This document shows, one piece after another, positions 1 through 25,793 of a stretch of 64,000 nucleotides of DNA. Source of the stretch: Phellopilus nigrolimitatus. Taxonomy: Eukaryota > Basidiomycota > Agaricomycetes > Hymenochaetales > Hymenochaetaceae. Positions within the stretch are counted from its first letter, which is position 1. Each line of letters opens with the position of its first letter. Both the position numbers and the translations under genes were made by a program. The notes beneath the pieces are model-generated. The model was not told where the DNA came from, did not search any database, and was given only the letters and a program-made list of their open reading frames with translations. The DNA lies in the NCBI GenBank assembly GCA_021029095.1, contig JAJOHG010000084.1, positions 52,245-116,244 of the forward strand, in the 5' to 3' direction.

Positions 1-1415
1 AATCTGGTAGCGATTTTCGCATCGCTGTCTGTGCTTTCATGTTTGCGAATAAGTTCGTTGACGAGTGCGTTTCAATCAAAATTTCTTGTCTTTTTTTTAC
101 TTTTTTTTAGTTTGATTTTAACTTTCTACAGTAATATGTATACGAACAAGACGTGGTCTGACGTATTTACAATCCCACTCGATGAGCTCAACAAAACGGA
201 GTGTGAATTCTTGCTCGGTGTTGGCTTCCGTCTTTTCGTCGATGAGCCCGACTCCTCCGCGGACTCGTTCTCGCTAAGGAGCACGAGCACATGTTCGCAG
301 CAGCACGCACAGGAATACACTGGTAGGAGGCTACGCTACTTTGCACAAAAGTCCCACCACTACAAGCACCCGCAGCAGCAGCAGCGCGTGCGCACAGCAC
401 CTCCCCACACCGTATGCGTGGTTATGCATATGCGCCGGTGTACCCCTTCATTTTCGGCGTGCCCTCCCAGTCGCACCACGCGGCCGTCAGCCCGGCATCC
501 GCGACTACGAGCCAGTCTGCGCAGACCTCCCCGAGCGACGCGTACAGTGGGGCGCGCCTGCACTCCTAAAGCACCGTGCGGCAGACGCGTTCTCGCCGAC
601 CTCAGCCACGTTCGCGGCGAAGCGGCCCCCCAAACTCACTCGATATCGTCTCTGGGCTGGTGGAGGTGAAGATCGAGGAGGCGGATGCAGAGGCAGCAAT
701 GGGCGAGGCGTTCTACCCGTCCTGTGCGGAGAGGAAGGTGCGGCTGAGGTACAGCCAGGCGCCTGCGCAGGCAGGTAATGGGTACTATGGTGCCTATGGC
801 TATAACAGCAGCCATGCAACTTATGTACCGTATGAATAGATGGTGTACAGCAACGGTAGCTGCACACAGGAAACCGCCGAGCGCGCATATTCGACACCGA
901 CATCTGTGCAAGAGTTTTCGTCTTCCTCTGGATCGAGCACATATAGCGAGACCGTGTCCGTCTGAGCTGCACCCACACGGCTGCCCCTCGTGTTTGCACT
1001 CTCACTCGCATTGTGCACCCCAGAGTGCGTGCACGAGCCCGCTGCTGAGCTTCGCAGACATGTACGGCGAGGTCGATGGCCCGTCGATGTCCATGTCCCA
1101 CTGTCTGCCGCTGATGCACACAACCGCCCCGCTGAGCGAGAGCGTCAATGGGGTGTACCTGCGCAGATGCAGCAGATGCAGCAGCTGTACTTGCTGCCGA
1201 ACCACCACCAGGCGGTGACCGCAACATCATTCACAAGCGCACTCAGCGAGCCGCAGCCCGCAGTGTTTGTGAACGCAGGCCCACCGGGCGTCACGCATCT
1301 CTATGGTGTGGACACTGGGAGCGCGCCGTACGCGTACTCACCTTTGTGCGGCTCCAGTATGAGCAGTGTGCTCATGACCATTTGCATGTTTCCTGTAGTG
1401 TATAGTTTCTTATAA
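1..1415 (+). pseudogene. cyclin (PCL/PHO80-like) relic, 3' part, copy 1
   Basis: The start of the window encodes SDFRIAVCAFMFANKFVDE. A short intron to about 135 follows, then YTNKTWSDVFTIPLDELNKTECEFLLG. These are the end of a cyclin box as seen in fungal Pcl-type cyclins that partner Pho85-like kinases. Downstream there are Ser/Pro-rich segments resembling the tail of such cyclins, but they are spread over several frames with stops between them (for example near 560, 838 and 964), and the last open frame ends near 1413. The gene is therefore broken. It is the captured cargo of element E1 and is nearly identical to the copy at 21.5-22.95 kb. Confidence 0.7.
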
Positions 1416-1772
1416 TGCATATGAAAACCACTCCACCAAACTCTGTGCATTAGCAGAAGTTCTACTATCCTGCCAGTGTGTGCTCCTTTAGAGGAAAAAA
1501 ATAGTTAAGAAAATAGAAGTAGTATGTAAATAACAAGCAATGTCATAAAATTGCTTCATATTTATTGATACAGAACCCCTTAACTCATTTTTTTTTTTGA
1601 CATTCAGACAGAAACACTATATGCCTACACATAACAGGGACTTTGGATGGATGCATTGCAGAAAGAAAGTTACAGGTGAAATTCAAAAGTGAACATCGCT
1701 GAGGACCATCACCGGAAGAAGCCGAGCGGTGGCTGTGAACGAGTGTACAATCTTACTTCGGAACGAGCTCAA

Positions 1773-1874
1773 TTTTGTACACTTTTTGTAATGAACACTG
1801 CCACATTTGCACAGCCACTGCTGGTGAAAACGCTCAGTTACAAAAAACGATTCTTCGTAAACTCAGTAATCGTA
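1773..1874 (-). repeat. Helitron-like 5' terminus of E1
   Basis: Read on the minus strand, the end begins GTTACGATTACTGAG. About 84 bp inside lies the motif TACAAAAAGTGTACAAAA (1773-1790 on the plus strand as its complement). The same motif lies 81-85 bp from the right ends of E2, E3 and E4. A subterminal GAATCGTTT-like block is also shared in degenerate form (GGATCGTC in E3 and E4). The terminal dinucleotide is ambiguous because a GT/AC is present both in the element and at the target. Confidence 0.65.
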
Positions 1875-1876
1875 AC

Positions 1877-3103: not shown

Positions 3104-3381
3104 TATTGGATATAGTATGATCTTGGACACTTTATTTCCTTTTATTATTTTGCGTACCAGGTGACTTGAACTCCTGACTTGTTGTTCTGCGTCACCTGAC
3201 ATGTTGATGTATTACATAATGCTTCCCTTGAAGCGGCAGAGTCCATGGATGGTGCTCTCTATCTTTTGCACTCATCCATTGGACTCAGGCATGTTTAGTT
3301 TCCATAATATATTATCTTTTGCACTCATCCATTGGACTCAGGTCACTGTCTGTGTTTGTTGTGAGACCACTCCGCCTCACA
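3104..3381 (+). repeat. 5' LTR of copia element C
   Basis: This 278-bp LTR starts TATTGGATATAG and ends CGCCTCACA. It is followed at once by GGTTATGAGCC, a primer-binding site complementary to the anticodon arm of initiator tRNA-Met, so priming is of the half-tRNA type known for copia. Inside the LTR is a tandem pair of the unit CTTTTGCACTCATCCATTGG about 50 bp apart, as in all copies here. Confidence 0.85.
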
Positions 3382-4279
3382 GGTTATGAGCCTTGCGCTG
3401 TAACTTCACAACAACGTTCAGTACACCGTCGACAACATCCTCCTTGATTTTCGTTCAAATCGGAGTTGATCTGGTCCCTCTGGAAGAGTTTCTGTCAACT
3501 GCAAAGTTCTGGGTGTTCGGATTGGGCTGTAATCGCAGGGTTGGGTTCTGTGGTGTGTCCGTCGTCTCTGTGTCGATTTTCGTGCCGCCATTCGCACTTG
3601 CTGGCACTCTACACCTCTCTGCATCGACATCCATCCTTATCATCCTCTCATCTGCACTCTCTGCTTTTCGTCTCATCGCTCGAAATCGGCCAAGCGGATC
3701 GTGCTGAAACTTCGCACGTCGTCTCGTCACTCTGGTCCCACTCGTCGTACCAGCTTGTAGCCGATTCGACTTCGATTTGAGGGTGCTGCATCGATTTCGA
3801 CTTTTGCAGTCTCTATCTGTCTGTTTGTCTGCTCCCTGCATCGTTTCTGCATAGCGGACTCAGTTCTTGCCCGATCGCTCTGCAATTTTACACACGTGCT
3901 CGTGTTCACGTCGTCTTGGTGTGTGTTGATTTGCGTCTCAATCGCTCCACCCGTTCTCTCTCTGTGTCGCGTTTTGCGCGGTTTGCCAGCTCTGGTACCT
4001 GACAGTTCAGACCCATTTCATTCCATTTGGTTGTTGTTGGATCAGATAGTCTATTGGTTGTGAAGCTCGACTGCAGGGCCTTAGTTTGCCCTTTGTGACG
4101 CTCTTTTGAGTGTTTACTTAAGCCTAGAGCCTCTCTCATCCAGCGGTGCCTGCGGAGTCTTAACAGACTGACAGACCAGCACTGTCTTGCGACGATTCTG
4201 TGTATACATTGATCATTTTGGGTGTTTGGAATCTGTTTGGCTTGTATTGACCTGATATCTGCAAATCGCGTAATTCGGC
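3382..4279 (+). other. 5' untranslated leader of copia element C
   Basis: About 900 bp lie between the primer-binding site and the gag-pol start. They match the leader of element D (10989-11886) in reverse with scattered substitutions. Short ORFs here are not conserved as proteins and are likely noise. No gene other than the element is supported. Confidence 0.6.
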
Positions 4280-6074: not shown

Positions 6075-6352
6075 TGTGAGGCGGAGTGGTCTCACAACAA
6101 ACACAGACAGTGACCTGAGTCCAATGGATGAGTGCAAAAGATAATGTATTAGAGAAACTAAACATGCCTGAGTCCAATGGATGAGTGCAAAAGATAGAGA
6201 GCACCATCCATGGACTCTGCCGCTTCAAGGGAAGCATTACATAATACATCAACATGTCAGGTGACGCAGAACAACAAGTCAGGAGTTCAAGTCACCTGGT
6301 ACGCAAAATAATAAAAGGAAATAAAGTGTCCAAGATCATACTATATCCAATA
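6075..6352 (-). repeat. 3' LTR of element D
   Basis: This LTR is the reverse complement of the family LTR (starts TGTGAGGCGG on the plus strand and ends ATATCCAATA). I see no difference from the 5' LTR at 11887-12164. It should contain the polyadenylation signal; none was mapped with confidence. Confidence 0.9.
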
Positions 6353-6380: not shown

Positions 6381-9300
6381 TCACAGAAGACCCAGCATAC
6401 CACGCATCTCAATCACCTTCACACGTCCAAGCGCCTTGGTCATGATGTCAGCCGGCATAGACTTGGTGGGGAGGTAGCGAATGTCAATAAGACCCGACTC
6501 AACCACATCGCGCAGCCAATAGTGCCGCAAGTCCAGGTGCTTCATCCGTCCATGGTGTTCAGGGTTCCTGGCAACAGCAAGGGCAGATTGGTTGTCCACA
6601 TAGAGTGTGGAAGGCGCATTGAACTCATAGCCAAATTCAGAGAATAAGTTGCGCAACCACATAATCTCCTGACCACCCTGGACAGCAGAGATGTATTCCG
6701 CTTCAGTGGTGGAGAGTGTCACAATAGTCTGAAGACGACTAGCCCAGCTGATAGCACCAGTTCCCATCTTAACCACCAGGCCGCTTGTAGAGCGCCTGTC
6801 ATCCTCATCCCCTCCATGGTCCGCGTCAGTGAATGTAGTGAACAATTCAGACGAGTTCTTGTCAGGCGCATAAGTCAACTTCATGTCTTTGGTGCCCTGA
6901 AGGTAACGACACAAGTGCTTTGCAGCCTTCCAGTGAGCAGGACCAGGATTGGAACTGAAGCGCGCAAGAAGTCCAACCGCATATGAGATGTCAGGACGCG
7001 TTGCCACAGCCAGATACATGAGTGCACCAATCAGCTGCCTGTAGGGGACAGTCTTCATGAATGCGATCTCTTCTGGAGTGAGGGGACCCATGGACTTGCT
7101 GAGACGATGGCCTTCTGGTAGTGGAGTGGAAACCTCGCTGCATCCAGCCATTTCAAAGCGCTCAAGTAAGTCAGTGATGTACTGGCGCTGAGATAGGGAT
7201 AGGGATCGGATTGAGCGGTCTCTCTCAATATGGACGCCAAGCAGGAAAGAGGTAGGGCCGAGGTCGCGCAGTTTGAAGTGCTTTTCAAGTTCGCGCTTGA
7301 CAAACAAGAATTGCTCCTTCGATTTTGCAGCAATGGTCATGTCATCCACATAGACTGGGATGATGATGCGTACATCGTCACGTCTGTAGACCCAAATGCT
7401 GTTGTCGCAGCGAACCAAGGAGAAGCCCATGCCCTTCAACACAGAGTCGAGTTTCTTGTGCCATTGGCGCCCAGCTTGCTTAAGACCATAGATCGCCTTA
7501 GCAAGCTTAAGCACAAAGCCGGCGCCATAATACTCCTCAAACCCTTCTGGTTGATCCATGTAGACATCATGATCCAAGTCACCATTGAGGAACGCAGTGG
7601 AGATGTCAATGCTGAACAACTCCAAGTCCTCAATTGCAGCCAAGGCCAGTATAGCGCGAAGTGCAGCCCACTTGGCAGTAGGAGCAAACACCTGTGCAAA
7701 CTCTAAGCCAGGGCGCTGTGAGTAACCCTTTGCCACCAATCGCGCCTTATGCCTGTCCACTGAGCCATCTGCCTTGCGCTTGAGTTTGAACACCCACCGA
7801 CAGCCAATGGTCTTGCGACCAGAAGGAAGTCTGACTGGGGTGAAGGTCCCATTCTCAACAAGACTGATAAACTCGTCCATTGCAGCCTGTTCCCAGAGGG
7901 AAGCGTCAGGGCGTCCCTTGATGTCTCTCCAGTGTACCGGCTCAGGACCATACTGGGTGCGCACCTCCGCAGAGAAGACATGCTCAAAGCAGTTTGTAGA
8001 CTTCAACACATGATTGTGTGCGTCCTCAAAACTGATGTAGCAGTCCTCAAGTGCCGCATTTGCCCCAAAGTCCATAAGCCCAGCAAACATAAGCGCCTCA
8101 GCCTGCATCTCATCCTCAGACATGATGTCTAACTCGTCACTGCGCTCAATCACAGGCTCAGGTGTAGGTGCTGCTGCTGGTGCTGGTGCAGCTGGAGCCC
8201 TAGGAATGCGACGACCTGGATAATCTGCAAGTGGATTAATCACTGCATCTCTGTACCCATGCATGGGACGCGGCTGAGGGCGCCAGGACGTTGAAGGCCA
8301 AGAAGGCGCTTCAGGTGCAGGTGTAGACTCAGGTGCAGGAGTGGGAGCAGGAGGTTCCTTGGGTCGTTTCGCAGGAGGAGGGTGAGCAGAGGGAGAGAAC
8401 ACAGGAGGGTCAGGAGGTACATCCGATGGAGCTCGCTCGCGCTTTACAGCAGGCCGAGTTGGAGTCACTGGAGGTGGTGCAGGACGAAAAGGAGGAGTGA
8501 CTGGAGCTGGTGGAGGGTGAGGAGGAGGAGTGGCAGGACGAGGAGGAGGAGGAGCTGGTGGATTAGCAGGGAGAAGAAGTGGCGGAACATCATCCACATT
8601 GCCATCTCCCCCCTGTTCCGGCACAGCTGTAGCCTCTGGAGGAGTTGGAACCCTTAAGTCGACAGGGGACCTGGTATTTCCAGGGAACACGCGTTCATCA
8701 AACTGAGCAGAGTCACTAATGACCTCTTTGCGCGTTATGGAGTTCCAGAATATCCAGCCTTTGTAGTTCTCAGGGTAACCAATGAAGGAGCATTTCTGTG
8801 TGTGTGACTGGAGCTGTTTGCGCATATCTTTCTTGACATGCACATAGGAGGTGCAGCCAAATACTCGAAAATGCGACACATCCGGCTTGGAATTGTGCCA
8901 CAGCTCATAGGGCGTCTTGCCCTGAACAGCAGAAGTAGGAGAGCGATTGTGCACATGAACAAAAGCATTGACCGCATCCCACCAGAAACTGGCAGGTAGG
9001 TGTGCTTCGTTCAGCATAGTGGTAATACCTTCAGCCAAAGTGCGATTAGCGCGCTCAGCTACTCCATTCTGGTGGGGTTCATCACGAACAGTGTGTTGCC
9101 GGTGAATCCCTTCAGAAATGCAGAATTGCTCCCATGCCTTGGGCATGTACTCTCCTCCCTTGTCATCGCGCGTCGCTTTGATCTTCAGGTTGAGCTGGTT
9201 CTCTGCATGTGCTTTGTAGCGCTTGAAAGCGTCAAATGCATCGCTTTTCTTCTTAAGGGGTATGACTCCCCAGCGCCGACTGAAATCATCAATGAATGTG

Positions 9301-10988: not shown

Positions 10989-11886
10989 GCCGAATTACGC
11001 GATTTGCAGATATCAGGTCAATACAAGCCAAACAGATTCCAAACACCCAAAATGATCAATGTATACACAGAATCGTCGCAAGACAGTGCTGGTCTGTCAG
11101 TCTGTTAAGACTCCGCAGGCACCGCTGGATGAGAGAGGCTCTAGGCTTAAGTAAACACTCAAAAGAGCGTCACAAAGGGCAAACTAAGGCCCTGCAGTCG
11201 AGCTTCACAACCAATAGACTATCTGATCCAACAACAACCAAATGGAATGAAATGGGTCTGAACTGTCAGGTACCAGAGCTGGCAAACCGCGCAAAACGCG
11301 ACACAGAGAGAGAACGGGTGGAGCGATTGAGACGCAAATCAACACACACCGAGACGACGTGAACACGAGCACGCGTGTAAAATCGCAGAGCAATCGAGCA
11401 AGAACTGAGTCCGCTATGCAGAAACGATGCAGGGAGCAGACAAACAGACAGATAGAGACTGCAAAAGTCGAAATCGATGCAGCACTCTCAATTCGAAGTC
11501 GAATCGGCCACAAGTTGGTACGACGGGTGGGACCAGAGTAACGAGACGACGTGCGAAGTTTCAGCACGATCCGTCCAGCCGATTTCGAGCGATGAGACGA
11601 AAAGCAGAGAGTGCAGATGAGAGGATGATAAGGATGGATGTCGATGCAGAGGGGTGTAGAGTGCCAGCAAGTGCGAATGGCGGCACGAAAATCGACACAA
11701 AGACGACGGACACACCACAGAACCCAACCCTGCGATTACAGCCCAATCCGAACAGCCAGAACTTTGCAGTTGACAGAAACTCTTCCAGAGGGACCAGATC
11801 AACTCCGATTTGAACGAAAATCAAGGAGGACGTTGTCGACGATGTACTGAACGTTGTTGTGAAGTTACAGCGCAAGGCTCATAACC
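10989..11886 (-). other. leader and primer-binding site of element D
   Basis: The non-coding leader lies between the 5' LTR and gag. The primer-binding site is at 11876-11886 (GGTTATGAGCC on the minus strand). It is complementary to the anticodon arm of initiator tRNA-Met rather than to its 3' end, which is the half-tRNA priming of copia. Confidence 0.75.
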
Positions 11887-12164
11887 TGTGAGGCGGAGTG
11901 GTCTCACAACAAACACAGACAGTGACCTGAGTCCAATGGATGAGTGCAAAAGATAATGTATTAGAGAAACTAAACATGCCTGAGTCCAATGGATGAGTGC
12001 AAAAGATAGAGAGCACCATCCATGGACTCTGCCGCTTCAAGGGAAGCATTACATAATACATCAACATGTCAGGTGACGCAGAACAACAAGTCAGGAGTTC
12101 AAGTCACCTGGTACGCAAAATAATAAAAGGAAATAAAGTGTCCAAGATCATACTATATCCAATA
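11887..12164 (-). repeat. 5' LTR of element D
   Basis: This is the upstream LTR of element D and should hold the promoter. It looks identical to the 3' LTR. The second CCAAC target-site copy follows at 12165-12169. Confidence 0.9.
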
Positions 12165-12361
12165 CCAACTCAACCTGAAGATCAAAGCAACGCGCGATGA
12201 CAAGGGAGGAGAATACATGCCCAAGGCATGGGAGCAATTCTGCATTTCTGAAGGGATTCACCGGCAACACACTGTTCGTGATGAACCCCACCAGAATGGA
12301 GTAGCTGAGCGAGCTAATCACACTTTAGCTGAGGGCATTACCACCATGCTGAACGAAGCAC
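12165..12361 (+). pseudogene. copia gag-pol of element C, middle fragment
   Basis: The frame of element C resumes after D with NLKIKATRDDKGGEYMPKAW and runs through the integrase motif NGVAERANHTL to TTMLNEA. It stops there because E2 starts at 12362. The sequence that should follow (HLPASFWWDAVNAF) is found at 23411, on the far side of E2. Compared with D there is one substitution in the integrase motif (RANRTL to RANHTL). Confidence 0.88.
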
Positions 12362-12406
12362 TTGTGGGAGAGGGCCATTGCTTTGCATGGCAGTATACGA
12401 TTCCTG
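12362..12406 (-). repeat. Helitron-like 3' terminus of E2 (hairpin plus inverted repeat)
   Basis: On the plus strand the end reads TTGTGGGAGAGGGCCATTGC then TTTGCATGGCAG and TATACGATTCCTG. CCATTGC and GCATGG can pair as a hairpin around a 2-3 nt loop. The block recurs at 30000-30041 and 30282-30325, each time after an AC dinucleotide. Because three different flanks precede it, it belongs to the element and not to the target. Confidence 0.65.
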
Positions 12407-13042
12407 TTTTCCTGATCTGTCAAGGTTAATGTGATGGAAATGTACTTGTGATAGAGCATGTCCCCTTCCCAAACTTCACCTCTGTCCTTGAGCATAGTTT
12501 CACAGAGTATCCTGGACAGATGGGAGGTCCTCGGAAAAAGACGCTGATTCTGACAGAGGCATGTGGGATTGTATATCCAGCATATCAGGGAGATGGGACA
12601 TGTTAGATTAATCAAGTAAATCACCATTTGGCTACTTTTATTAACATGTCTTTGTGATGAGAAGAATAAGAGGACAATGTGATTGGAAGACAGACTCAAC
12701 CTTTCAGGTTAAATTCAACAATGCTGCTTCAAGTACTTAACTCCATGCTCTTTTTCTGGCTCAGAGAACACAGTAAGTCATGTGGTTATCACATTTCAAG
12801 CCTTTTTTAAAACTTACACCTATCTCTAACATTAGAATATGTTATGTAGTCAGAACTAAGATCATGGATGATTCACAACCTGTCTATAAACTCGCATTCA
12901 TTTCTTCATTTCCCCTTCTTTACTGCCATTTCCGGATCTTGCTCTACTGCCTTTGCGAGCTGGCATTGTTCCTTCAACTCAAAGTCCCACCAACCATCAA
13001 TGACCAGGCCTATAGGGCATGGGAAGAGGTTTCAATTTCATT
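12407..13042. other. AT-rich stretch without recognised gene (3' part of E2)
   Basis: About 640 bp of low-GC sequence lie between the E2 3' end and the SPF1 relic. The short ORFs on both strands have no recognisable motif. I see no gene here. Confidence 0.5.
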
Positions 13043-16000
13043 CTATGTTTTGTGCACATCCACAGAAAGACTGAGAGTACTTGCGAATTTCAACAATCTG
13101 CAGCCAGCACGAAAATTAGGCGACAGCGCTCGAACCGACCAGTCCCCAGTAGGGCGCGGGGTTCTCCCTGATGCTCTCGCGGAGTGGCTGGTCCTGCAGA
13201 TCAGAGATTTGAGGTCATAATTATGCGAGTGAGAAACTAATGAACGAACTTGAAACCTAATCGCAAAGGTTGAGACCTGCTGCGATAGACCGAGAAGGTA
13301 GATAGCGGTGTTTAGTAGATTCGGCTCGAACTTCGCCTCAAGGTCTATAGGACCGCACCTGCAAGTCGGTATCAATTGGCATTCAGCAAAACAAGAAAAG
13401 GAAATGATGTCAATGCAACGTAGGAAGGAGGAATGCGCACTCTTCACTGGCATTCGAAAGCGTAGTGATGTAGACCAGCGACGCGATATGGATCGCAAGC
13501 TGAATCAAAGTTGAAAGCAGGACTAAAGATTGAAGATGTTGCTAAAAGGGTGCTCGCGCAATAGCTTTTCTACAGGCTGCCCAGCAAAGGGAAAAGAAAT
13601 TTAAAAGCATAAATCAACACAATTAGGTTGTACATACAAAAAAGCTGGGCGTACCTTCGCACGCGAGACGCACAGGAAGCAAACTGGCATGAGCATGCCC
13701 GTTATCATCACCTGGTAGTCGTCATACTTAATACCGTCGAGTATTGCACGCTCAGCGCGTACGCAGAGATCAGACAGCTCAGCGCGAGAATCTTGTACAT
13801 CTGCGCCGTCGCGACAAGCGTGCAACGGCCCTGGCGGATGATGTGCACGACTAGGAAAGGTAGCCATGATTAAGTGTTATTGAAGGAAAAAGAAAAGAGA
13901 CGTACTGCTGTTGACATTCGATAGCTTGGAGGTGAACGGCGCGGCACAGGAGGCATCACCGAGTTTGATCTTCGGGACGTCATCTTCTGCATCCATGTCT
14001 GCCAGACTATTTGTATTGGAGTTTAGATCGAAACTGCATGCATGACATCATTCAGTATATTCCTACACAGCCAGATGAGTAAAGAATTTTGTACTTTTTC
14101 CATAGGATTTTGTCGCCTGTGCTGCCGCAGACTTCACCTGGGCCTCAACAATTTCCGGGAACGCGCTCGCCAAGGTGGGCGGAACAGGCGGAGGGGGCCT
14201 AGTTGAAGCGCGCAGAGACCCTGAGCTGCGGTTCATACACCTTCTCGACGTGTTCGAGGCGCTGGTGCTCTGTGATCTTCTTGAGGTCGTCCAGCGTGCC
14301 GTTGAGCAGCGCGACACCGACATGTGCATGTTTGAGCGCGCCGACGTCGTTCGGGCGACATCCGTCATCAACGTGACATATCCGAGTGACTTGAGTGTCG
14401 TTAAAATGAGCCCCTTCTGTGCGGGCGATACTCGCGCGTACACCCATGTGTGCTGAACAAGCGTCAACCAAGTTGGGCGATACTCATATTGCTTCAACGC
14501 AGCACCGGTGATGCAGATGTCGTATTCGCACAGTAGGGTTTGATCAAATGGCGCGGAGGGATCTACATGAATAAACTTCGTTTCATCGACCGTGCGCCAT
14601 TCGAGATCTGCGTAAAGCTGGATCAGTATTACCAACCACTATGTAGTTTCTCAGATTTCCTCACCTGCTTCATGCCCCGGGTTCTCTTTCAGATCTAAAA
14701 TGAATGCCTCGCGGTCCACGATTTCGACGTCGCGCGCGACATGCACATCAGCCAGAGGATTATCGCCAGTTATCATTATGCACTGTCCAAAGAAATGAGC
14801 AATTTCATTCAAGCCTCAAAATATTTAGATAAAACGCACCCTATGTGAAGACTCCGCAAGCATTTTGGGTGTCTCGACGGTGTCTTCCTTTAGCGGACAA
14901 GAAAGGCAGCAAAGTTGAGCTCGCTTTTAACCTGTTCGCGTGCAAGGTGATTAATCTGGAAAAAACTCATCAGTTATCAAGCCGAATCGAGTGACCAGGA
15001 GTAAGGCATACCTTATTGTTTCCGGTGCCGTCCATCTCCTTCCCTGCGAGAGCGAGCACACAGCTTCCGCGGCGAGTGAAGTACTTATACGTCTCGTCGT
15101 ACTCTTTTGAAACGCGCGCGAGCATCGTTTTAATCGTCTCGGGGGCACCCTTTACGCTCACCAAGGCTTGTCCGCTTCCGGGTCCCTTTTGCACTGTTGC
15201 AACAGTCGCCATGCGCTTCAGCGCGGAGAAAAACTGGAAGCACCGGCGTATATGCAGCTTGGCACCTGATACGGTGGTGCCGCTGTCGGGAGCGACGCGG
15301 TCCCCAGTAAGTAGCAGCCGAGCGCCTCAAGCGCGACCTTCTCCATGGGGTCGCCAACGATCATGCCGTCATCGAGACGCACGAGCGCGTGCGCCGCGAC
15401 GAGACACAATGCAGTTTCGCGCCTAGTTTCACAAACAGGTACGAGGCGGCGCGCAAGGCTCCCTCGACGACAAAAATCTCAGCCGTGATCGTGCCGGTTT
15501 TGTCGAACGCGCAGACTTCGACGCGGTCCGCGAATGGGACGCGGAAGGGCTCAGTGCAGAAGACAGCATGTTTCTGGAGTGCGACGAGCGAGACATTGAC
15601 GGCCAAGGAAAGCTCCATGGGAAGCTCGGGCGAGACGACCGAAGTGACGATCATGACACAGTCAAGGAGCAGCTCGGACGTTTTGAGCCCGCACGCGAAA
15701 CCACTGAACCCAAACGTAGGACGAGGCGGCAAGCGCGAAGACAAGCAAGAAGGCGATGAAAAGAAAGGACTCAAGCGTGTTGGCCGAGACACGCTCCGAG
15801 GAGAATAGCATCGTTCGCACGAGCGAGCCCGGAGCGGTGCCGAAGCCCGTGCGAAGCACGGCGGCAAGGCAGCCATTGTCCGGGGTCGTAGGTCCTCCTG
15901 TGCTCGCATTTCCGTTCGCGCTGCTGCTACTCGATTGGAGGGCCTTTGTCCCGCTGAAAAGGACCCTATTTTTGCGCGCGACGTCAACGTCGAGACGTTC

Positions 16001-16903
16001 GGCGCATTCAAAGAGCTCAATTGATTCCTTAAGGAGAGGCGTGGACTCCCCAGAAAGCATGGCCTCGCTGACAATGCAGGTGCCACGAAGAAGGAGCAGG
16101 TCTGCCCGAACGGTTGTACCCTCATTGAGGGACTGCCGGCGTGCGGCGGAAACCACGTCGCCTGGGAGGAGTTCGTCGGATTGAATGACGGTCCAGCTGC
16201 CGTCGCGGAAGCGATGTATGGGATAGGGCTCGATGCTCATCGATCGGAACTCAGTGAGTGTGCGGACGCGCTGCCAGACAACGGTGCACTCGAACATGAT
16301 GAGCATGAAAAGGGCGAAGATGGAATAGTACCAGTATTCGCCAAGGCACCAAAGCGCGACGCAGAAAATCTGAAAAACGAAGGGCGCGGTGGCATGTTCG
16401 CTGAAGAGCGCACCGAAGGCAGGAATCGGGATGTGGAACTCATTTTTGCCGTACAGACTGAGAAGGCTAGGGATGTCAGATGCAGTGAGTCCGAGAGCGG
16501 CGCGCCCGGAGGGAAGTTGGAACTCTGCAAGCGGCGGTCTGGCAGAAGACGGGTACGGGAGCGGGGCAAACACCGGAGGGTTTTCGGAGAGCAGGACGTA
16601 AGAGCCACCGAACGCGCCGGCGCCGGGGCCACGCGTGAGGCGATCTCGAAGGCGAGAACGGCGTGCGCGTGCTTCTTCGCGAGCTTGAGGACAACCTCGG
16701 GCGCGCCGGCGGCGGAGCGCGGCACGGCGAGGAGCGCGCCGGGCACGAGCAGCAGCGCGATGGCGCTGCCTTCGCACCAAGTTCGTGCGAGATGGCGAGT
16801 GCGAGGGCCGTTTTCCTGTGCAGGGAGCACGGGCGGGTAAAAGCGCACGACAAGAGAACCTGCGCGTCTTGACGAGGTCCACTACAACACCACGCCTAGT
16901 CAC
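13043..16903 (-). pseudogene. SPF1: P5A-type ATPase relic (SPF1/Cta4-like ER ATPase)
   Basis: Intact Spf1 is an ER P5A ATPase that removes misinserted transmembrane helices. Reading leftwards on the minus strand I see: CVALWCLGEYWYYSIFALFM...FECTVVWQR with [12 protein letters not shown], the actuator region near [11 protein letters not shown] and [13 protein letters not shown], the loop [19 protein letters not shown], the phosphorylation motif DKTGTI (about 15500), VSVKGAPETIKTML, and the C-terminal membrane part near 13310 (LLNTAIYLLGLSQQVSTFAI). The segments fall in different frames. The nucleotide-binding hinge that should read GDGTND is scrambled by a frame change (about 14350-14380), and the catalytic core is split by stops. 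A complete but dead gene copy is carried by E2. Confidence 0.8.
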
Positions 16904-16933
16904 GTCAATAGTCCGTTTTAAAAAGTAGATAAA

Positions 16934-17415
16934 TTACTCTCGCATACCTCCCGAGCGTTCGCTCGCTGCATCGGTTGCAGCCAGGCCCTCCGGCGAAAGC
17001 CCCAGGCCTTTAATGTGCGAGTGGGAGGCTATCCGCGACGTACGCGCCGCTGACGAAGAGGACGGAGATGGAAGTGCATTGTGAGGGACTAGGCCGAGGA
17101 CGACGCTGTGGATGTTGTCGCCTTCATCCCTGTACAATACAATGCCGTATATGGAAGTTGGCACGTCAAATAAAGGTTTACTTAGTTTTCACAGGAAATT
17201 TGAAGCCTACCTCCTCCGAAATAATTTGCAGACACGAAGACATGAAGTCAATATCTGAACATTTGTTGTTTTATTGGTCTACTTTCCGTTCCGAATAAAT
17301 GGGAGGCCGGCCGTACAGCGAGCTCGATACATTTATGACGCACGCGGTCGACTCCACTAGTCTACGGACTCTACCGTTTCGATACACAAGAGCCTGTTGC
17401 CTTCGTACTTTTTGA
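16934..17415. other. stretch of E2 without recognised gene
   Basis: The sequence between the SPF1 relic and the first HAD fragment has a 76-codon minus-strand ORF and a 76-codon plus-strand ORF. Neither shows a motif I recognise. Confidence 0.4.
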
Positions 17416-17700
17416 AAATAATGTGCCCCGCGCGCTCCTCATCGACCTCTCCGGCACGCTGCACATCGGGTCTACTTCGAGCCCGCCGCAGCTGCCGCTT
17501 TCTCGCGCGCGCGGAAGGTGGGGCTCGACGTGCTCTTCTGAAGTAACACCAGCCAGGAGAGTGCGCCCGCGTTGCGTGAGCGGCTTGGCAGCATGGGCTT
17601 CGACGTGCACGACAGTGAGCTCTGGACGAGCCTCGGTGCGCCCAGGGGGTCTCTGCCGTGTCTGGACCCAGACCAGGCAGCCCAGGACATGCCTTATCGC
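17416..17700 (+). pseudogene. HAD-type phosphatase fragment, copy 1 (HDHD2/LHPP-like)
   Basis: The plus strand encodes RALLIDLSGTLHIGST, which is HAD motif I of the HDHD2/LHPP branch (DLSGTLH). It then continues in shifted frames through SNTSQES-like (motif II) and RLGSMGFDVHDSELWTSLG. At about 17645 it switches abruptly into a 73-bp block that recurs at 20560-20635. There is no downstream catalytic lysine or acidic motif. It is a short captured N-terminal piece. Confidence 0.65.
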
Positions 17701-17770
17701 GGCAGCACTCCGTGAGTGAGCAACTGGTAAGTTTAATTTATTCTTCTTGTATATATAAAAATGCAAACAC

Positions 17771-18540
17771 TTACGCATAAACGGCAGCGCGTTTCGATTT
17801 CGACTCGACTGACGAGTCGACCATGACATATAGAGATAACCAAGGAGCAAGGTGAGCACGCCTCAAAATAAGTTTTAGTTCAGTATGATTGACAGATTTG
17901 TACCCACGCAGGTCTTGACGTCGAACCACGGGCGCTTCCTCCATCACCGCCTTCCTATCGACCAGCTGCCCCACCTCTAGCGTTTCCCCTTCCCGCCTTC
18001 CTCGTCCCATCCTCGCCCCATCGCCGTCGCCTCCCCGCCCGCGCAGCACACCCGCTCGCCCAACATCGGCTCCCCGTCCCCCGGCGGCCCGCACCTCAAG
18101 GACGACTTCGACTACCGCCAGGCGGCGCGCCAGTGCGCGTCCACCTCGCCGTCGTGCTTGTCCCCGTCGTCCCCGTGCAGTACGCGCTCGCGCGGCAGCT
18201 CCGCCGCGCACGAGGACGTCCTCGCGCTCGGATACTGAGTCGGCGCGCGCCTGCGCCTCCAGGGCGAGCTCCTGCGGCGCGTCGACCTCGCGTATTACCT
18301 CATCACCACCACTTATGCAGCTCACGCTACCTGTCACGACGGAGGCTCGATCTATCAAACCATTATCGTTACCTGTACCGGCTTCTACAGTAACATCGCC
18401 ATCAGCCTTTCCATCACGCTCTCCTACGTCTTTATTTGCCTCATCGCCGCTCATAGCCGAGGTATTGCTGCAGACTACTGCATCTCAAACCACTCCCTCT
18501 GATTTCCGCACACAACTATCAGATTTTCACTCAACATCTG
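17771..18540 (+). other. GC-rich cargo segment of E2, unrecognised
   Basis: A plus-strand reading of 18040-18240 gives a Ser/Pro/His-rich stretch (SPNIGSPSPGGPHLKDDFDY) typical of low-complexity parts of fungal regulators. After about 18270 there is a hydrophobic stretch (YYLITTTYAAHATC) interrupted by stops. On the minus strand a 227-codon ORF is rich in Arg/Gly and is probably the antisense shadow. No function can be given. Confidence 0.3.
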
Positions 18541-18544
18541 CGTC

Positions 18545-18778
18545 TCGATAGCAGTGCTGAATGACGAGCTGGAGAAGCAACGTTCGAGGAAGCGTGCCGA
18601 CGATACTTCCAAAACCGAGCTCAAGGCACAGACCAAGGCTCTCGAGGATCAGAAGCGCACGGCAAAGGGTGTGCGCCGCGACGCGGAGGAGCGACTTTTG
18701 GCGGCTTGTACAGAGAGGGATGGCGTGATCTCGCACACGCAGTGTCTCGAGCGCGAAGTGCGCGAGCTACGCGTGTAA
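18545..18778 (+). pseudogene. coiled-coil gene fragment
   Basis: An open frame of about 75 codons reads LNDELEKQRSRKRADDTSKT and continues with charged heptads (QTKALEDQKR, RDAEERLLAACTERDGV, LEREVRELRV). It looks like one exon of a long coiled-coil protein. It ends at a stop just before the second HAD fragment. Parent gene unknown. Confidence 0.45.
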
Positions 18779-18780
18779 AT

Positions 18781-19070
18781 GGAGACGCAGGGTGCGGCGA
18801 TCCGTGCGCTCCACATAGACCTCTCCGGCACGCTGCACATCGGGCCTACCCCGACGCCCGCCACAGCTGCCGCTCTCTCGCGCGCGCGGCAGGCGGTGCT
18901 CACCGCGCGCTTCTGCAGCAACACCAGCCAGGAGAGCGCGCGCGCGCGCGCTGCGTGAGCGGCTTGGCAGCATGGGCTTCGGCGTGCGCGACGGCGAGCT
19001 CTGAACGAGCCTCAGCGTGCTCAAAGAGGTCGTCCGGGAGATGAATCTGCAGAGGTGCGTTTCGTGCATG
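18781..19070 (+). pseudogene. HAD-type phosphatase fragment, copy 2 (HDHD2/LHPP-like)
   Basis: This begins METQGAAIRALHIDLSGTLH, with motif I altered only at one residue compared with copy 1. The next segment, SRARQAVLTARFCSNTSQES, holds motif II. A (GC)n run near 18940 and a stop then break the frame, although GLRRARRR/GVRDGEL-type sequence of the parent is still visible in the next frame. It is similar to but clearly diverged from copy 1, so the two pieces were captured separately or duplicated long ago. Confidence 0.65.
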
Positions 19071-19909
19071 GATAGTAAATAATCCTACAGGTATTTAAGT
19101 ACTTTTTTCAGGTCCTAGGCCCTCCTATCCGACTCCGCGATGCGAGGCGGGGGGTAAGGAGTACTCGACCCCAATGGGCGGCTCCGCGCGTTTGAGCCCC
19201 GTGATGGGCAACAGCCAGCAGCGCACGTTCAGCGCGCCGTCGACGCTGAAGGGCACGTCGACGACGCCGGCCCTCCAGGCGACCGCGCACGGCACGCAGG
19301 TGCCGTCGGCAAGGTTCTTCCCGCATGCACCGCCCAAGCTTGCCTGTGCAGGCCTCTCCGCCCGTACGACACCATTCGCCTCCTCAGCCGGCGCTGCAAT
19401 GTGCGTCTGCGGCGTGGACGACGACGAAGCGCCCGTGTCCGTGTTCGCAGGGCTCTCGGTTGACTGCGAAGCCGCGTCCAACTGGCCAAGAGACTGCGCT
19501 TCAGCCGGCGATGACGACGGCGGCGAACGCGAAGGGGTGGAGTACTTCAGAAGTTTGAGCTTCGTGGGTAAGGACGTGTACAGCGTCGTGGCTGCCGAGC
19601 GGCTACCCATCATGAGCGCGCGCTCCGCCGTCGCCTCCTTTTGCTCCTCCGGCGTGCGCGTGTCGCACTTGAGGTAGTCGATGCCCCGGGCCGCCTACGT
19701 CTGTGTGTCGATGCTCGCGCACAGGCCACAGGCCACACGTGAGCGCGGAGTCCGCGTGCACCCGACAACTCGGAAGCCGACGGCAGGTATGGAAATGGAT
19801 GACGTAGTGCGTACAGCGCGCTGTACGCACTACGTCATCCATGTCGAGACCTGCATCACGTGAAGATGACTAAGGTTTTAGGCACGTGGGCGAAGACAGC
19901 CGACAGAGC
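19071..19909. other. E2 cargo with open frames on both strands, unrecognised
   Basis: There is a 167-codon plus-strand ORF (19174-19677) and a 162-codon minus-strand ORF (19125-19613), both GC-rich and without known motifs. The minus reading has a Ser/Pro/Ala-rich part (TDTGASSSSTPQTH), which is slightly more protein-like. The stretch also contains the 48-bp palindrome described separately. Confidence 0.3.
19795..19842. repeat. perfect 48-bp palindrome
   Basis: The sequence from 19795 to 19842 equals its own reverse complement with no spacer. Each 24-nt arm begins ATGGATGACGTAGTGCGTAC and the centre is GCGC. The sequence outside it does not continue the symmetry. Confidence 0.9.
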
Positions 19910-20190
19910 TCCTAGATTTCGACAAGGCAAACGAGATATTGTTTCATCTTAGAATAATCTACAAACAACAGGGAAAATACATGGAGTCGCTCGAAGGCTT
20001 TGATTGCATTCTCAGAAACCCTCCGTCTCCGCTTGCACACGCCGATATTTGGTTCCAGGTCAGCCACGTCTACGAGCAGCAGAAGGATCATGCGCGCGCC
20101 AACGTTGCATATGAACGTGTTGTCCAGGAGACCCCGTCGCACGCCAAGGTCTTGCAGCAGCTCGGCTGGCTGTACCGACGGGACAGTCTG
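19910..20190 (+). pseudogene. CYC8: TPR fragment of a CYC8/SSN6-like co-repressor
   Basis: The frame reads LDFDKANEILFHLRIIYKQQ, then GKYMESLEGFDCILRNPPSP, HADIWFQVSHVYEQQKDH and HAKVLQQLGWLYRRD. These are tandem TPR units with the spacing and wording of the Cyc8 (Ssn6) TPR array, the part that binds Tup1 and DNA-bound repressors. Only about two and a half repeats are present, and the frame is lost after GWLYRRD. Captured fragment, not a gene. Confidence 0.75.
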
Positions 20191-20265
20191 TCACAACGTC
20201 GGCTCCCCTCCCTCAGGACGTACACCCGACGGCATACGCGAGCGCAGCAGGCCCGCCTGTGACAA

Positions 20266-20943
20266 TTGCTGGTGAACCGCCGTTACTCATGTTCCTCCGG
20301 TCCGATCCCGCGTCCGATCTTCACGCGCACCGAGTCATCCAATACTTGGGAACGGGAACGGCGCGGGGACAGGGTGCGTGAGCGTGTGCGCCCGAGGAGT
20401 GATTCCGATAGAATGGGGCTCACACCGTCCGCATCGAATTTCAGCCATGCACACTCGCAGTCTCGCGGACCGGCTTTGCCGAGGTCTGCTCATCCGTATG
20501 AACCGCTTTCACACCCGCCGTCAAGAAGGAGCATAATAGGAAGACTGTCGTCGGTGGTCTCTGCCGTGTCTGGACCCTCACCAGGCAGCCCAGGACATGG
20601 CTTATCGCGGCAGCACTCCGTGAGTGAGTGCTCGCCTTTTGTCGGTCCCGCTGGTGCGACAGGACTGGGCCAGCACTGGAAGGCGAGCGGCCCATATGGA
20701 GAGCATCTTGCGGCCTTGAGCCCGCACTTAAATGATGATTTGTTACTGACAGATTGGCCGCCGCCGATGGATTCGCCTACACCGGCGCCTGTGGCTCACC
20801 CGCGTGCACAAGCGCAAGCTCAGACGGCGGCGCCTAGCCGTCGTTATGATCCACGGTTTGACGAGAGCCCGCACGGAGCAAGGGCGGAGCGACAGGTTAC
20901 GCATAGACCGCGAGCGCGAGTACTCGTGCAGGCTGAAGCCTGA
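20266..20943 (+). pseudogene. Ser/Pro/Arg-rich ORF of unknown parentage
   Basis: This 225-codon open frame has a low-complexity composition (FSHAHSQSRGPALPRSAHPY, VSAVSGPSPGSPGHGLSRQH). It is like a disordered region of a fungal regulatory protein, possibly the tail of the preceding CYC8-like gene. A 73-bp part (20560-20635) is repeated at 17645-17720, where it is fused to the HAD fragment. No domain is recognised. Confidence 0.35.
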
Positions 20944-21049
20944 GAAAGAGCAGTTTGAGGCCCAGGCGAGTCCGCTCAAAAAGGCTCCTACCAGTAAGTC
21001 CGTGTACATTTAAAAAAACCTGAACACTTACGCATAAACGAATAGTGTG

Positions 21050-22951
21050 TGAAGTCGCCGACGTGGGGATGGACGACGCCCAGGGCGAGCTCGAGCCTGT
21101 CCAGCAGCAGGCACAACAGTGGACGGAGTGAGATGCGGCGGAATGGCAGAACGAGCTGCAGCAGCAAAACGAGGCAGACCCGTACGTGTGTCCGGAACCG
21201 GAGCTCGAGTCGGAGACGTCGCACCACCTCGCAGACTGGGTCAACAACTCGCAGAAGCATTCCGCGCACTCTATTGCAGAGAAGACATGCGAGATGGTCT
21301 GCTCCCTCTGGCTCTCCTCGTCGCTCGGGCACAGTGCTGCAGCCGCTCCCGCCACCGCCGGGAACGCAAGCAGGAGCGTTGTCGCGCCGCGTCTGCCACC
21401 CGTTCAAATGCAAATGAGAACGCGAACCGCGAGTGCAGGCCCCCGCTGTTTGCAGCTCGTCCGTTAAGCAATGCGCGCACAGCCAGTCTGCAATTCTGCG
21501 CATCCCCCAAGGGGGCTAACGACTTCACTCTCGGCAAATCTGGTAGCGATTTTCGCATCGCTGTCTGTGCTTTCATGTTTGCGAATAAGTTCGTTGACGA
21601 GTGCGTTTCAATCAAAATTTCTTGTCTTTTTTTTACTTTTTTTTAGTTTGATTTTAACTTTCTACAGTAATATGTATACGAACAAGACGTGGTCTGACGT
21701 ATTTACAATCCCACTCGATGAGCTCAACAAAACGGAGTGTGAATTCTTGCTCGGTGTTGGCTTCCGTCTTTTCGTCGATGAGCCCGACTCCTCCGCGGAC
21801 TCGTTCTCGCTAAGGAGCACGAGCACATGTTCGCAGCAGCACGCACAGGAATACACTGGTAGGAGGCTACGCTACTTTGCACAAAAGTCCCACCACTACA
21901 AGCACCCGCAGCAGCAGCAGCGCGTGCGCACAGCACCTCCCCACACCGTATGCGTGGTTATGCATATGCGCCGGTGTACCCCTTCATTTTCGGCGTGCCC
22001 TCCCAGTCGCACCACGCGGCCGTCAGCCCGGCATCCGCGACTACGAGCCAGTCTGCGCAGACCTCCCCGAGCGACGCGTACAGTGGGGCGCGCCTGCACT
22101 CCTAAAGCACCGTGCGGCAGACGCGTTCTCGCCGACCTCAGCCACGTTCGCGGCGAAGCGGCCCCCCAAACTCACTCGATATCGTCTCTGGGCTGGTGGA
22201 GGTGAAGATCGAGGAGGCGGATGCAGAGGCAGCAATGGGCGAGGCGTTCTACCCGTCCTGTGCGGAGAGGAAGGTGCGGCTGAGGTACAGCCAGGCGCCT
22301 GCGCAGGCAGGTAATGGGTACTATGGTGCCTATGGCTATAACAGCAGCCATGCAACTTATGTACCGTATGAATAGATGGTGTACAGCAACGGTAGCTGCA
22401 CACAGGAAACCGCCGAGCGCGCATATTCGACACCGACATCTGTGCAAGAGTTTTCGTCTTCCTCTGGATCGAGCACATATAGCGAGACCGTGTCCGTCTG
22501 AGCTGCACCCACACGGCTGCCCCTCGTGTTTGCACTCTCACTCGCATTGTGCACCCCAGAGTGCGTGCACGAGCCCGCTGCTGAGCTTCGCAGACATGTA
22601 CGGCGAGGTCGATGGCCCGTCGATGTCCATGTCCCACTGTCTGCCGCTGATGCACACAACCGCCCCGCTGAGCGAGAGCGTCAATGGGGTGTACCTGCGC
22701 AGATGCAGCAGATGCAGCAGCTGTACTTGCTGCCGAACCACCACCAGGCGGTGACCGCAACATCATTCACAAGCGCACTCAGCGAGCCGCAGCCCGCAGT
22801 GTTTGTGAACGCAGGCCCACCGGGCGTCACGCATCTCTATGGTGTGGACACTGGGAGCGCGCCGTACGCGTACTCACCTTTGTGCGGCTCCAGTATGAGC
22901 AGTGTGCTCATGACCATTTGCATGTTTCCTGTAGTGTATAGTTTCTTATAA
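21050..22951 (+). pseudogene. cyclin (PCL/PHO80-like) relic, nearly complete copy
   Basis: From about 21060 the frame reads AQGELEPVQQQAQQWTE, a stop, then AAEWQNELQQQNEADPYVCP and HHLADWVNNSQKHS...EKTCEMVCSLW, the usual N-terminal part of basidiomycete Pcl-type cyclins. After a frame change comes ASLQFCASPKGANDFTLGKS joined directly to GSDFRIAVCAFMFANKFVDE. The central cyclin-box helices between these two pieces appear to be deleted. An intron (about 21639-21666) and YTNKTWSDVF follow. The downstream half is the 1.9-kb segment shared with E1. Confidence 0.75.
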
Positions 22952-22975
22952 TGCATATGAAAACCACTCCACCAA

Positions 22976-23308
22976 ACTCTGTGCATTAGCAGAAGTTCTA
23001 CTATCCTGCCAGTGTGTGCTCCTTTAGAGGAAAAAAATAGTTAAGAAAATAGAAGTAGTATGTAAATAACAAGCAATGTCATAAAATTGCTTCATATTTA
23101 TTGATACAGAACCCCTTAACTCATTTTTTTTTTTGACATTCAGACAGAAACACTATATGCCTACACATAACAGGGACTTTGGATGGATGCATTGCAGAAA
23201 GAAAGTTACAGGTGAAATTCAAAAGTGAACATCGCTGAGGACCATCACCGGAAGAAGCCGAGCAGTGGCTGTGAACGAGTGTACAATCTTACTTCGGAAC
23301 GAGCTCAA
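22976..23308. other. AT-rich 5' part of E2 without gene
   Basis: About 330 bp downstream of the cyclin relic leads to the E2 right terminus. It is identical to 1440-1772 in E1 apart from one base. Poly(T) and A-rich runs occur; no ORF is supported. Confidence 0.5.
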
Positions 23309-23410
23309 TTTTGTACACTTTTTGTAATGAACACTGCCACATTTGCACAGCCACTGCTGGTGAAAACGCTCAGTTACAAAAAACGATTCTTCGTAAACTC
23401 AGTAATCGTA
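23309..23410 (-). repeat. Helitron-like 5' terminus of E2
   Basis: The conserved 18-nt motif (as its complement) lies at 23309-23326, 84 bp from the end. The last bases are AATCGTA followed by AC, then copia pol. Read in reverse this gives TTACGATTACTG, the partner of ATACGATTCCTG near the left end. Confidence 0.65.
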
Positions 23411-25793
23411 ACACCTGCCTGCCAGTTTCTGGTGGGATGCGGTCAATGCTTTTGTTCATGTGCACAATCGCTCTCCTACTTCTGCTGTCCAGGGCAAGAC
23501 GCCCTATGAGCTGTGGCACAATTCCAAGCCGGATGTGTCGCATTTTCGAGTATTTGGCTGCACCTCCTATGTGCATGTCAAGAAAGATATGCGCAAACAG
23601 CTCCAGTCACACACACAGAAGTGCTCCTTCATTGGTTACCCTGAGAACTACAAAGGCTGGATATTCTGGAACTCCATAACGCGCAAAGAGGTCATTAGTG
23701 ACTCTGCTCAGTTTGATGAGCGCGTGTTCCCTGGAAATACCAGGTCTCCTGTCGACTTAAGGGTTCCAACTCCTCCAGAGGCTACAGCTGTGCCGGAACA
23801 GGGGGGAGATGGCGATGTGGATGATGTTCCGCCACTTCTTCTCCCTGCTAATCCACCAGCTCCTCCTCCTCGTCCTGCCACTCCTCCTCCTCGTCCTCCA
23901 CCAGCTCCTGTCACTCCTCCTTTTCGCCCTGCACCACCTCCGGTGACTCCAACTCGGCCTGCTGTAAAGCGCGAGCGAGCTCCATCGGATGTCCCTCCTG
24001 ACCCTCCTGTGTCTTCTCCTTCTGCTCACCCTCCACCTGCGAAACGACCCAAGGAACCACCTGCTCCTACCTCTGCACCTGAGTCTACACCTGCACCTGA
24101 AGCGCCTTCTTGGCCTTCAACGTCTTGGCGCCCTCAGCCGCGTCCTTTGCATGGGTACAGAGATGCAGTGATTAATCCTCTTGCAGATTATCCAGGTCGT
24201 CGCATTTCTAGGGCTCCAGCTGCACCAGCACCAGCAGCAGCACCTACACCTGAGCCTGTGATTGAGCGCAGTGACGAGCTTAGACATCATGTCTGAGGAT
24301 GAGATGCAGGCTGAGGCGCTTATGTTTGCTGGACTTATGGACTTTGGGGCAAATGCGGCACTTGAGGACTGCTACATCAGTTTTGAGGACGCACACAATC
24401 ATGTGTTGAAGTCTACAAACTGCTTTGAGCATGTCTTCTCTGCGGAGGTGCGCACCCAGGTATGGTCCTGAGCCAGTACACTGAAGAGACATCAAGGGAC
24501 GTCCTGACGCTTCCCTCTGGGAACAGGCTGCAATGGACGAGTTTATCAGTCTTGTTGAGAATGGCACCTTCACCCCAGTCAGACTTCCTTCTGGTCGCAA
24601 GACCATTGGCTGTCGGTGGGTGTTCAAACTCAAGCGCAAGGCAGATGGCTCAGTGGACAGGCACAAGGCGCGATTGGTGGCAAAGGGTTACTCACAGCAC
24701 CCTGGCTTAGAGTTTGCACAGGTGTTTGCTCCTACTGCCAAGTGGGCTGCACTTCGCGCTATACTGGCCTTGGCTGCAATTGAGGACCTGGAGTTGTTCA
24801 GCATTGACATCTCCACTGCGTTCCTCAATGGTGACTTGGATCATGACGTCTACATGGACCAACCAGAAGGGTTTGAGGAGTACTATGGCGCCGGCTTTGT
24901 GCTTAAGCTTGCTAAGGCGATCTATGGCTTGAAGCAGGCTGGGCGCCAATGGCACATGAAACTCGACTCTGTGTTGAAGGGCATGGGCTTCTCTTTGGTT
25001 CGCTGCGACAACAGCATTTGGGTCTACAGGCGCGACGATGTGCGCATCATCATCCCAGTCTATGTGGATGACATGACCATTGCTGCAAAGTCGAAGGAGC
25101 AATTCTTGTTTGTCAAGCGCGAACTTGAAAAGCACTTCAAACTGCGCGACCTCGGCCCTACCTCCTTCCTGCTTGGCGTCCATGTTGAGAGAGACCGCTC
25201 AATCCGATCCCTATCCCTATCTCAGCGCCAGTACATCACTGACTTACTTGAGCGTTTTGAAATGGCTGGATGCGGCGAGGTTTCTACTCCATTGCCAGAA
25301 GGCCATCGTCTCAGCAAGTCCATGGGTCCCCTCACTCCAGAAGAGATCGCATTCATGAAGACTGTCCCCTACAGGCAGCTGATTGGTGCACTCATGTATC
25401 TGGCTGTGGCAACGCGTCCTGACATCTCATATGCGGTTGGACTTCTTGCGCGCTTCAGTTCCAATCCTGGTCCTGCTCACTGGAAGGCTGCAAAGCACTT
25501 GTGTCGTTACCTTCAGGGTACCAAAGACATGAAGTTGACTTATGCGCCTGACAAGAACTCGTCTGAATTGTTCACTACATTCACTGACGCGGACCATGGA
25601 GGGGATGAGGATGACAGGCGCTCTACAAGCGGCCTGGTGGTTAAGATGGGAACTGGTGCTATCAGCTGGGCAAGTCGTCTTCAGACTATTGTCACTCTCT
25701 CTACCACTGAAGCGGAATACATCTCTGCTGTTCAGGGTGGTCAGGAGATTATGTGGTTGCGCAACTTGTTCTCAGAATTTGGCTATGAGTTCA
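23411..25793 (+). pseudogene. copia gag-pol of element C, 3' part
   Basis: The pol frame resumes at the codons for LPASFWWDAVNAFVHVHN, first in one frame to about 24290, then after a frame break near 24280-24520 in another (437 codons, 24533 onward). It covers the proline-rich linker, the RT (YVDDM near 25060) and RNase H (TTFTDADHGGDEDD, STTEAEYISA). It ends at GYEF flush against an LTR start at 25794. About 80 codons of pol and the polypurine tract are missing. At least one frameshift near the linker/RT junction makes it defective in addition to the insertions. Confidence 0.85.

Follow-up and report, generated by a model that had tools for sequence, protein, structure and literature searches.

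A probable Helitron2-type transposon carrying host-gene pieces and an internal palindrome in Phellopilus nigrolimitatus

The window analysed here, 64,000 nucleotides of Phellopilus nigrolimitatus DNA (C619:52245-116244 within a genome of 56.4 Mb in 635 contigs), includes a copia pol gene split by 11 kb of DNA that is not copia, and the locus raises the question of what this DNA is, how it moved and where its host-gene pieces came from. The initial annotation, made from the letters of the window, took it for a mobile element assembled from dead host genes. The element, here called W, is very probably a non-autonomous rolling-circle transposon of Helitron2 type that has accumulated host-gene pieces. 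Its type is read from the asymmetric terminal repeats, the lack of target duplication and an invariant 3' T, and its mobility from ends that are paired in 13 elements, from empty sites and from a near-identical copy elsewhere. It is linked to a Rep-helicase (RepHel) by two members with a RepHel beside the same 3' end, and its cargo is read as captured from matching open frames elsewhere in the genome.

Paired ends and empty sites

12361..23411, minus strand (Rep-helicase sense): element W, whole, 11,051 bp, with ends common to 12 other paired members and with empty sites
8903..9103, minus strand: empty target site of W in an uninterrupted copia copy, 96% identical over 201 bp spanning the junction, gapless
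1..1875, minus strand: tail of the sister copy C619A (C619:39856-54119), 99.96% identical to W over 10,772 bp
23110..23411, minus strand: conserved 5' block, covered in 10/10 other distinct members compared with W

The break in the copia pol gene between 12360 and 23412 was confirmed, and intact copia copies run across the site, among them an inverted copy in the same window that is uninterrupted at the insertion point. The borders of W are uncertain by one base because an A stands at both junctions; in W these are two bases, AC.

The whole genome was searched for the ends with 32-bp and 20-bp patterns and longer probes, instead of the 45 and 105 bp named in the initial annotation. The left end (left and right as in the window) had 20 copies with at most three mismatches and the right end 23 with at most two; reversed-pattern controls for both ends gave no matches in the whole genome. 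The terminal motifs noticed in W are thus common to 13 paired elements, all pairs being on the same strand: W, C619A, C434, C610, C445, C135, C179, C190, C71, C290, C112, C606 and C598. Random placement would give 0.06 same-strand pairs within 15 kb, against 11 of the 13 pairs observed that close. The elements are 7.4-33.7 kb in size, the 12 fully read members 7.4-31.8 kb; the length of C598 (about 33.65 kb) was taken from its end coordinates, its sequence being read in part only.

The members share their ends and differ in their interiors, where these were read. The last 300 bp of W on the right were covered by all 10 other distinct members, against a mean coverage of 0-5 of the 10 in the interior. 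Interior matches of at least 100 bp among 11 distinct members numbered 141 in the same orientation and 16 inverted. The end searches revealed no further family end within any of the 13 spans, although more diverged ends could remain there. Besides the family itself, 17 related right ends with 73-83% identity (L033-L038 and 11 more places) probably belong to sister Helitron families; the three viewed closely (L034-L036) have the terminal repeat as TACGATTCCTG.

C619A lies 10.5 kb from W and occupies a different copia position in spite of the 99.96% identity, so that one of the two is a recent copy. C619A also holds a 3.2-kb insertion (L050:583-3807, outside the window) with DDE_1 and HTH_Tnp_Tc5 domains, a pogo/Tc5-type transposon nested there. 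The window also has a 2972-bp inverted repeat (3104-6075 / 9193-12164, 98% complementary) that contains copia sequence.

Gapless empty sites with the same end points were recovered for seven of the 13 elements (W, C434, C619A, C445, C135, C71 and C606) at six copia positions. The empty site of C598 is nearly so: C598 was inserted within another family member, and a paralogue spans the junction at 87% identity with small gaps, including a single A at the joint. The elements C434:149347-158568 and C619:39856-54119 share one copia position and carry different cargo, and the flanks of C619:24150 and C2:938267 likewise abut a single copia position. No target site duplication was detected in the seven elements at six positions, though one of 1 bp (A) could remain. 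A 2-bp AC duplication was considered and dropped, since the right neighbour is not C in C445, C190, C290 and C606.

These sites also bear on an explanation without transposition, by segmental duplication, ectopic recombination or assembly joins between repeats. The region of W is a nest of copia copies, the flanks of C190 are mismatched and C434 and C619A stand at one copia position, all as such an explanation would have it. The 13 end pairs, the six exact empty positions and the differing flanks of the near-identical W and C619A argue against it, and it is considered very improbable.

The flanks of 17 of the 23 right ends lie in one copia family; as C605 and C610:73370 share a flank and look like one site, this makes 16 of 22 distinct sites. 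Counted by one 35-mer, the copia family has 86 copies and makes up about 0.8% of the genome. From the local density 3.9 to 6.4 of the 22 sites would be expected in it, a value that is too low because only copies with that 35-mer were counted. Part of the enrichment reflects nesting in copia-rich stretches. The orientation relative to the young copia family is alike at 14 of the 16 sites (p 0.004).

Terminal anatomy and the Rep-helicase partner

12361..12420, minus strand: 3' terminus ...CCCTCTCCCACAAG, followed by T in the target; 20 genome copies, 17 of them aligned
12374..12391, minus strand: 3' subterminal hairpin GCCAT(GCAAAGCA)ATGGC, 13 nt from the 3' end, from the sequence
12396..12406, minus strand: 3' asymmetric terminal inverted repeat CAGGAATCGTA, 35 bp from the 3' end, from its match to the 5' end
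23400..23410, minus strand: 5' asymmetric terminal inverted repeat TACGATTACTG, 1 nt from the 5' end, from alignment and repeat matching
23383..23409, minus strand: possible 5' hairpin ACGATT...AATCGT that uses the 5' repeat, from the sequence

The direction of the element was set by its Rep-helicase. The PF14214 domain was found at 11 places in the genome and between paired family ends only at C598:6076-6729. The C598 frame, 2460 codons long, stops near 1167, and the family 3' end follows about 100 bp on, at 1065. C606 has both family ends and a RepHel split by copia, with a PIF1 domain and the gene end 103 bp from the same 3' end; the two RepHels are 98% identical over 1.5 kb. As these genes end beside the family 3' end, RepHel reads from right to left in the window, opposite to the polarity first assigned to W. 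The earlier statement that there is no transposase holds for W, in which the Pfam scans gave no transposase match at E <= 0.01, but not for the family, two of whose members (C598 and C606) share the ends and carry RepHel. Both the N part of RepHel and the PIF1 helicase belong to the family, PF14214 being seen in C598 and PIF1 in C606, that is, in separate members, with no single member read with both. With its uninterrupted RepHel frame C598 is a candidate autonomous partner.

The RepHel had 235 homologous proteins over the threshold, the best 41% identical; among the 120 of these matches listed the top identity was 48%, with 70% of the query covered, and PF14214 and PF05970 occurred together in most of them. 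The helicase part matched 19 distinct solved sequences, including Helraiser.

Read in the Rep-helicase sense, the ends are 5' TTACGATTACTG... and 3' ...CCCACAAG|T. The 5' repeat stands 1 nt from the 5' T in 12/12 aligned members, and the 3' repeat has four variants among 12 members. In W the 3' repeat matches the 5' end at 10 of 11 positions, which was equalled by 6 of 5000 shuffles, and in C598 at all 11 (0/5000); with so few shuffles reaching it, the match is unlikely to be due to chance. A transposon with inverted tips was dropped, no inverted tips being seen.

A tyrosine-recombinase element (Crypton or Starship-like), or another cargo transposon without inverted tips, would also have tips like those of W, a short ambiguous junction and a large cargo. 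The gene for transposition that was detected between family ends is, however, RepHel, with no search aimed at recombinase families, and the asymmetric terminal repeats of W fit Helitron2. Such an element is hardly credible here.

In all 12 fully read insertions a T follows the 3' end, and the base preceding the 5' end is G in eight, A in two and T in two, giving the target N|T. The initial annotation had rightly noted that the usual Helitron ends and A/T target are absent: instead of the 5'-TC and CTRR-3' of Helitron1, 12/12 members have 5'-TT and CAAG-3', and a 5' A, as in the A|T target of Helitron1, was found in only 2/12 although the 3' T is constant. Its suggestion of a Helitron2- or Helentron-like family stands for Helitron2, which fits the terminal anatomy, and lacks support for Helentron. 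All the kinds of check it proposed, on paired ends, empty sites and relatives with a Rep-helicase, came out in favour of a non-canonical family of this sort. A Helentron, or other non-canonical Helitron branch, would share the rolling-circle mechanism and represent a different lineage, and in the available passages Helentron termini are similar to those of W. Against this, scans of the C606 frames and of the C-terminus of C598 gave no endonuclease domain, and with G as the 5' neighbour in 8/12 and T in 2/12 the target is not the TT dinucleotide of Helentrons. Such a lineage appears unlikely.

Captured cargo and the internal palindrome

Cargo fragments in W were detected by Pfam with stops read as X, and by DNA matches to donors:

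15680..16222, minus strand: captured E1-E2 ATPase fragment, named SPF1-like in the initial annotation (PF00122, E 5e-14, above cut-off)
16811..17035, minus strand: weak TIP49-like fragment (PF06068, 0.0013, below cut-off)
17482..17637, plus strand: HAD phosphatase fragment 1 (Hydrolase_6; PF13344, 8.4e-5, below cut-off)
17645..17721, plus strand: second small TPR (CYC8-like) gene piece (96% over 77 bp to the C1 donor)
18294..18798, plus strand: piece of a coiled-coil-looking gene (93% over 506 bp to the C112:524500-525900 frame)
18815..18961, plus strand: HAD phosphatase fragment 2 (Hydrolase_6; PF13344, 0.0014, below cut-off; repeats 17428-17644)
19902..20954, plus strand: TPR (CYC8-like) gene, three fused pieces with two internal deletions (93, 93 and 89% to C1:2594600-2596900)
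21669..21770, plus strand: cyclin fragment (PF08613, 0.0034, below cut-off)

The fragments first reported were in part borne out: only the ATPase exceeded the Pfam cut-off, the two HAD phosphatases and the cyclin matched below it, and the TPR gene was identified by its donor DNA. The TPR donor is an open frame of 767 codons with TPR domains (C1:2594600-2596900), of which 433 and 535 bp were lost at the fusions in W. The coiled-coil piece matches an open frame of 466 codons (C112:524500-525900) in which the Pfam scan gave no match, so that its coiled-coil nature goes back to visual judgement. It is the fragments in W that are dead; both donor loci fetched (2/2) are open over the entire fetched stretch and 89-93% identical to the captured pieces. 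Further donor candidates are present in the genome, many of them on a pair of contigs, as two haplotypes would give.

The cargo differs in both other members scanned. C445 has TPR, ubiquitin hydrolase and glyoxal oxidase above the cut-off, and C179 has ATP citrate lyase above and a galactose-oxidase-like piece below it; an OmcA-like match in C179 (0.0099, below cut-off) was taken as chance. At cargo joints of W an intron-like unit GTAAGT...CACTTACGCATAAACG is repeated (17727-17783 / 20994-21040), and a relative of it adjoins the C598 insertion.

By analogy with the available passages of the Helraiser work, from which nicking, strand transfer, circle formation and insertion are taken, the RepHel of a C598-like member would nick the strand at the 5' end TTACGATTACTG. 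The nicked strand would be peeled off while the gap is refilled, until the 3' hairpin and CCCACAAG halt the peeling; the ends would then be joined into a circle and the circle inserted before a T. Host pieces may enter the interior stepwise while the gap is being refilled, through template switching or filler repair. Such stepwise capture is suggested by pieces in both orientations, internal deletions and break points that recur in other members, as well as by the constancy of both ends with no second family end found inside. Reading past the 3' end, which would give new 3' ends or leave old ones inside, was rejected as the main route, as 13/13 elements keep the same 3' end and the end searches showed no old end inside them; filler or template-switch capture fits better.

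A palindrome lies in the interior of W:

19797..19840, no strand: perfect 44-bp palindrome, with imperfect arms reaching across 19783-19854

In W it folds much better than shuffles (z -10.6). The palindrome is present in 11/11 complete members without RepHel, 1.6-6.3 kb from the 5' end, each arm having at least 20 of 22 bases as in the W arm. C598 has it at 23514 and C606 has only a degenerate one. With at most three mismatches it has 20 copies in the genome, 12 within complete members; the contigs of the remaining eight carry unpaired family ends, at most about 6.5 kb away from the palindrome by coordinates (the distance for C598:972 being reckoned without the nested element). Two of the 22 pairs are altered on both sides, which was equalled by 147/500 shuffles; the covariation score was equalled by 4/500. 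The covariation is modest, and the search with three mismatches biases the set toward intact palindromes.

Rolling-circle plasmids have a single-strand origin, to which a role of the palindrome may be likened. As a third cis-acting part it might fold on the transferred single strand and start second-strand synthesis on the circle, a proposal made tentatively and regarded as rather doubtful. The palindrome could instead be explained by shared descent, arm-to-arm copying or a regulatory role, as it has TGACGTA half-sites and CACGTG nearby.

Relation to known Helitrons and significance

Several observations weigh against reading W as a Helitron2-type element with stepwise capture. Partnerless ends make up 7/20 of the left and 10/23 of the right copies, and in the DNA examined no clear empty site was found for C610, C179, C190, C290 and C112 (5/13). 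The flanks of C190 (C190:2096-10616) correspond to copia positions 1360 and 1679, with 318 bp missing or rearranged, so this insertion is not clean. Both hairpins fold no better than shuffles (3', z -0.65; 5', z -0.31), and the HLHL stretch of its relatives is missing at the copia joint of the C606 piece read. None of the 12 fully read insertions shows the published Helitron2 target TTTT|T. The capture route is based on few junctions.

The best-known case of large-scale gene-fragment capture by Helitrons is that of maize. The maize gene-capturing Helitrons differ from the present family in being plant elements, and they have canonical TC/CTRR ends. In them host-gene fragments are taken up stepwise, as is proposed here (e.g. 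PMC3288121; this and the following comparisons draw on the available parts of the papers).

Helitron2 (Bao and Jurka 2013, PMC3627910) has asymmetric repeats, the 5' one at the tip and the 3' one above the hairpin. The present family resembles it in the 5' repeat, which lies 0-2 nt inside the 5' end, the 3' repeat upstream of a putative 3' hairpin, the 5' T and the lack of target duplication, there in elements with a TTTT target. It differs in the 3' repeat, 35 bp from the end here and about 20-30 there, in the target (N|T against TTTT|T/C), in the 3' end CCCACAAG, and in the internal palindrome and the host-gene patchwork. FoHelis with the target TNAT|T were classed as Helitron2-like (Chellapan et al., PMC5148889), and the target is therefore taken as variable and not defining.

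The FoHeli elements of Fusarium oxysporum (Chellapan et al. 2016, PMC5148889) are likewise fungal, with RepHel and asymmetric repeats, the 3' one 20-40 bp from the end; their ends are different (TCAG...ATTTT or TGCCT...CTCCTGT), and 27 putative captures were reported with no evidence for the importance of capture. HELPO of Pleurotus ostreatus (Castanera et al. 2014, PMC4289320) includes basidiomycete RepHel elements, one with a RepHel split by a long terminal repeat element, gypsy there and copia here; its 3' end is CT[A/T]G, its captured genes are of unknown origin and its intact elements are without P. ostreatus gene fragments. Helitron2 has been reported in Agaricus bisporus (PMC12730594), and a review mentions Helitron capture in fungi with elements up to 14 kb. 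Among the open-licence PMC titles and abstract beginnings listed, neither an internal palindrome in Helitrons nor massive host-gene capture in a basidiomycete was described.

The element is thus real, recently mobile and of Helitron2 type; new are the scale of capture for a fungus and the palindrome. The scale matters since the two fungal Helitron surveys (PMC5148889, PMC4289320), in their available parts, report little host-gene capture. The palindrome, which the members examined have in common, suggests a component of rolling-circle transposition that the available passages on known Helitrons do not describe. If it were the second-strand origin, cargo could come and go while the ends and the palindrome are kept. 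With a recent copy, a candidate autonomous partner, open donors and empty sites all in one genome, the steps of capture could be put in order and tested.

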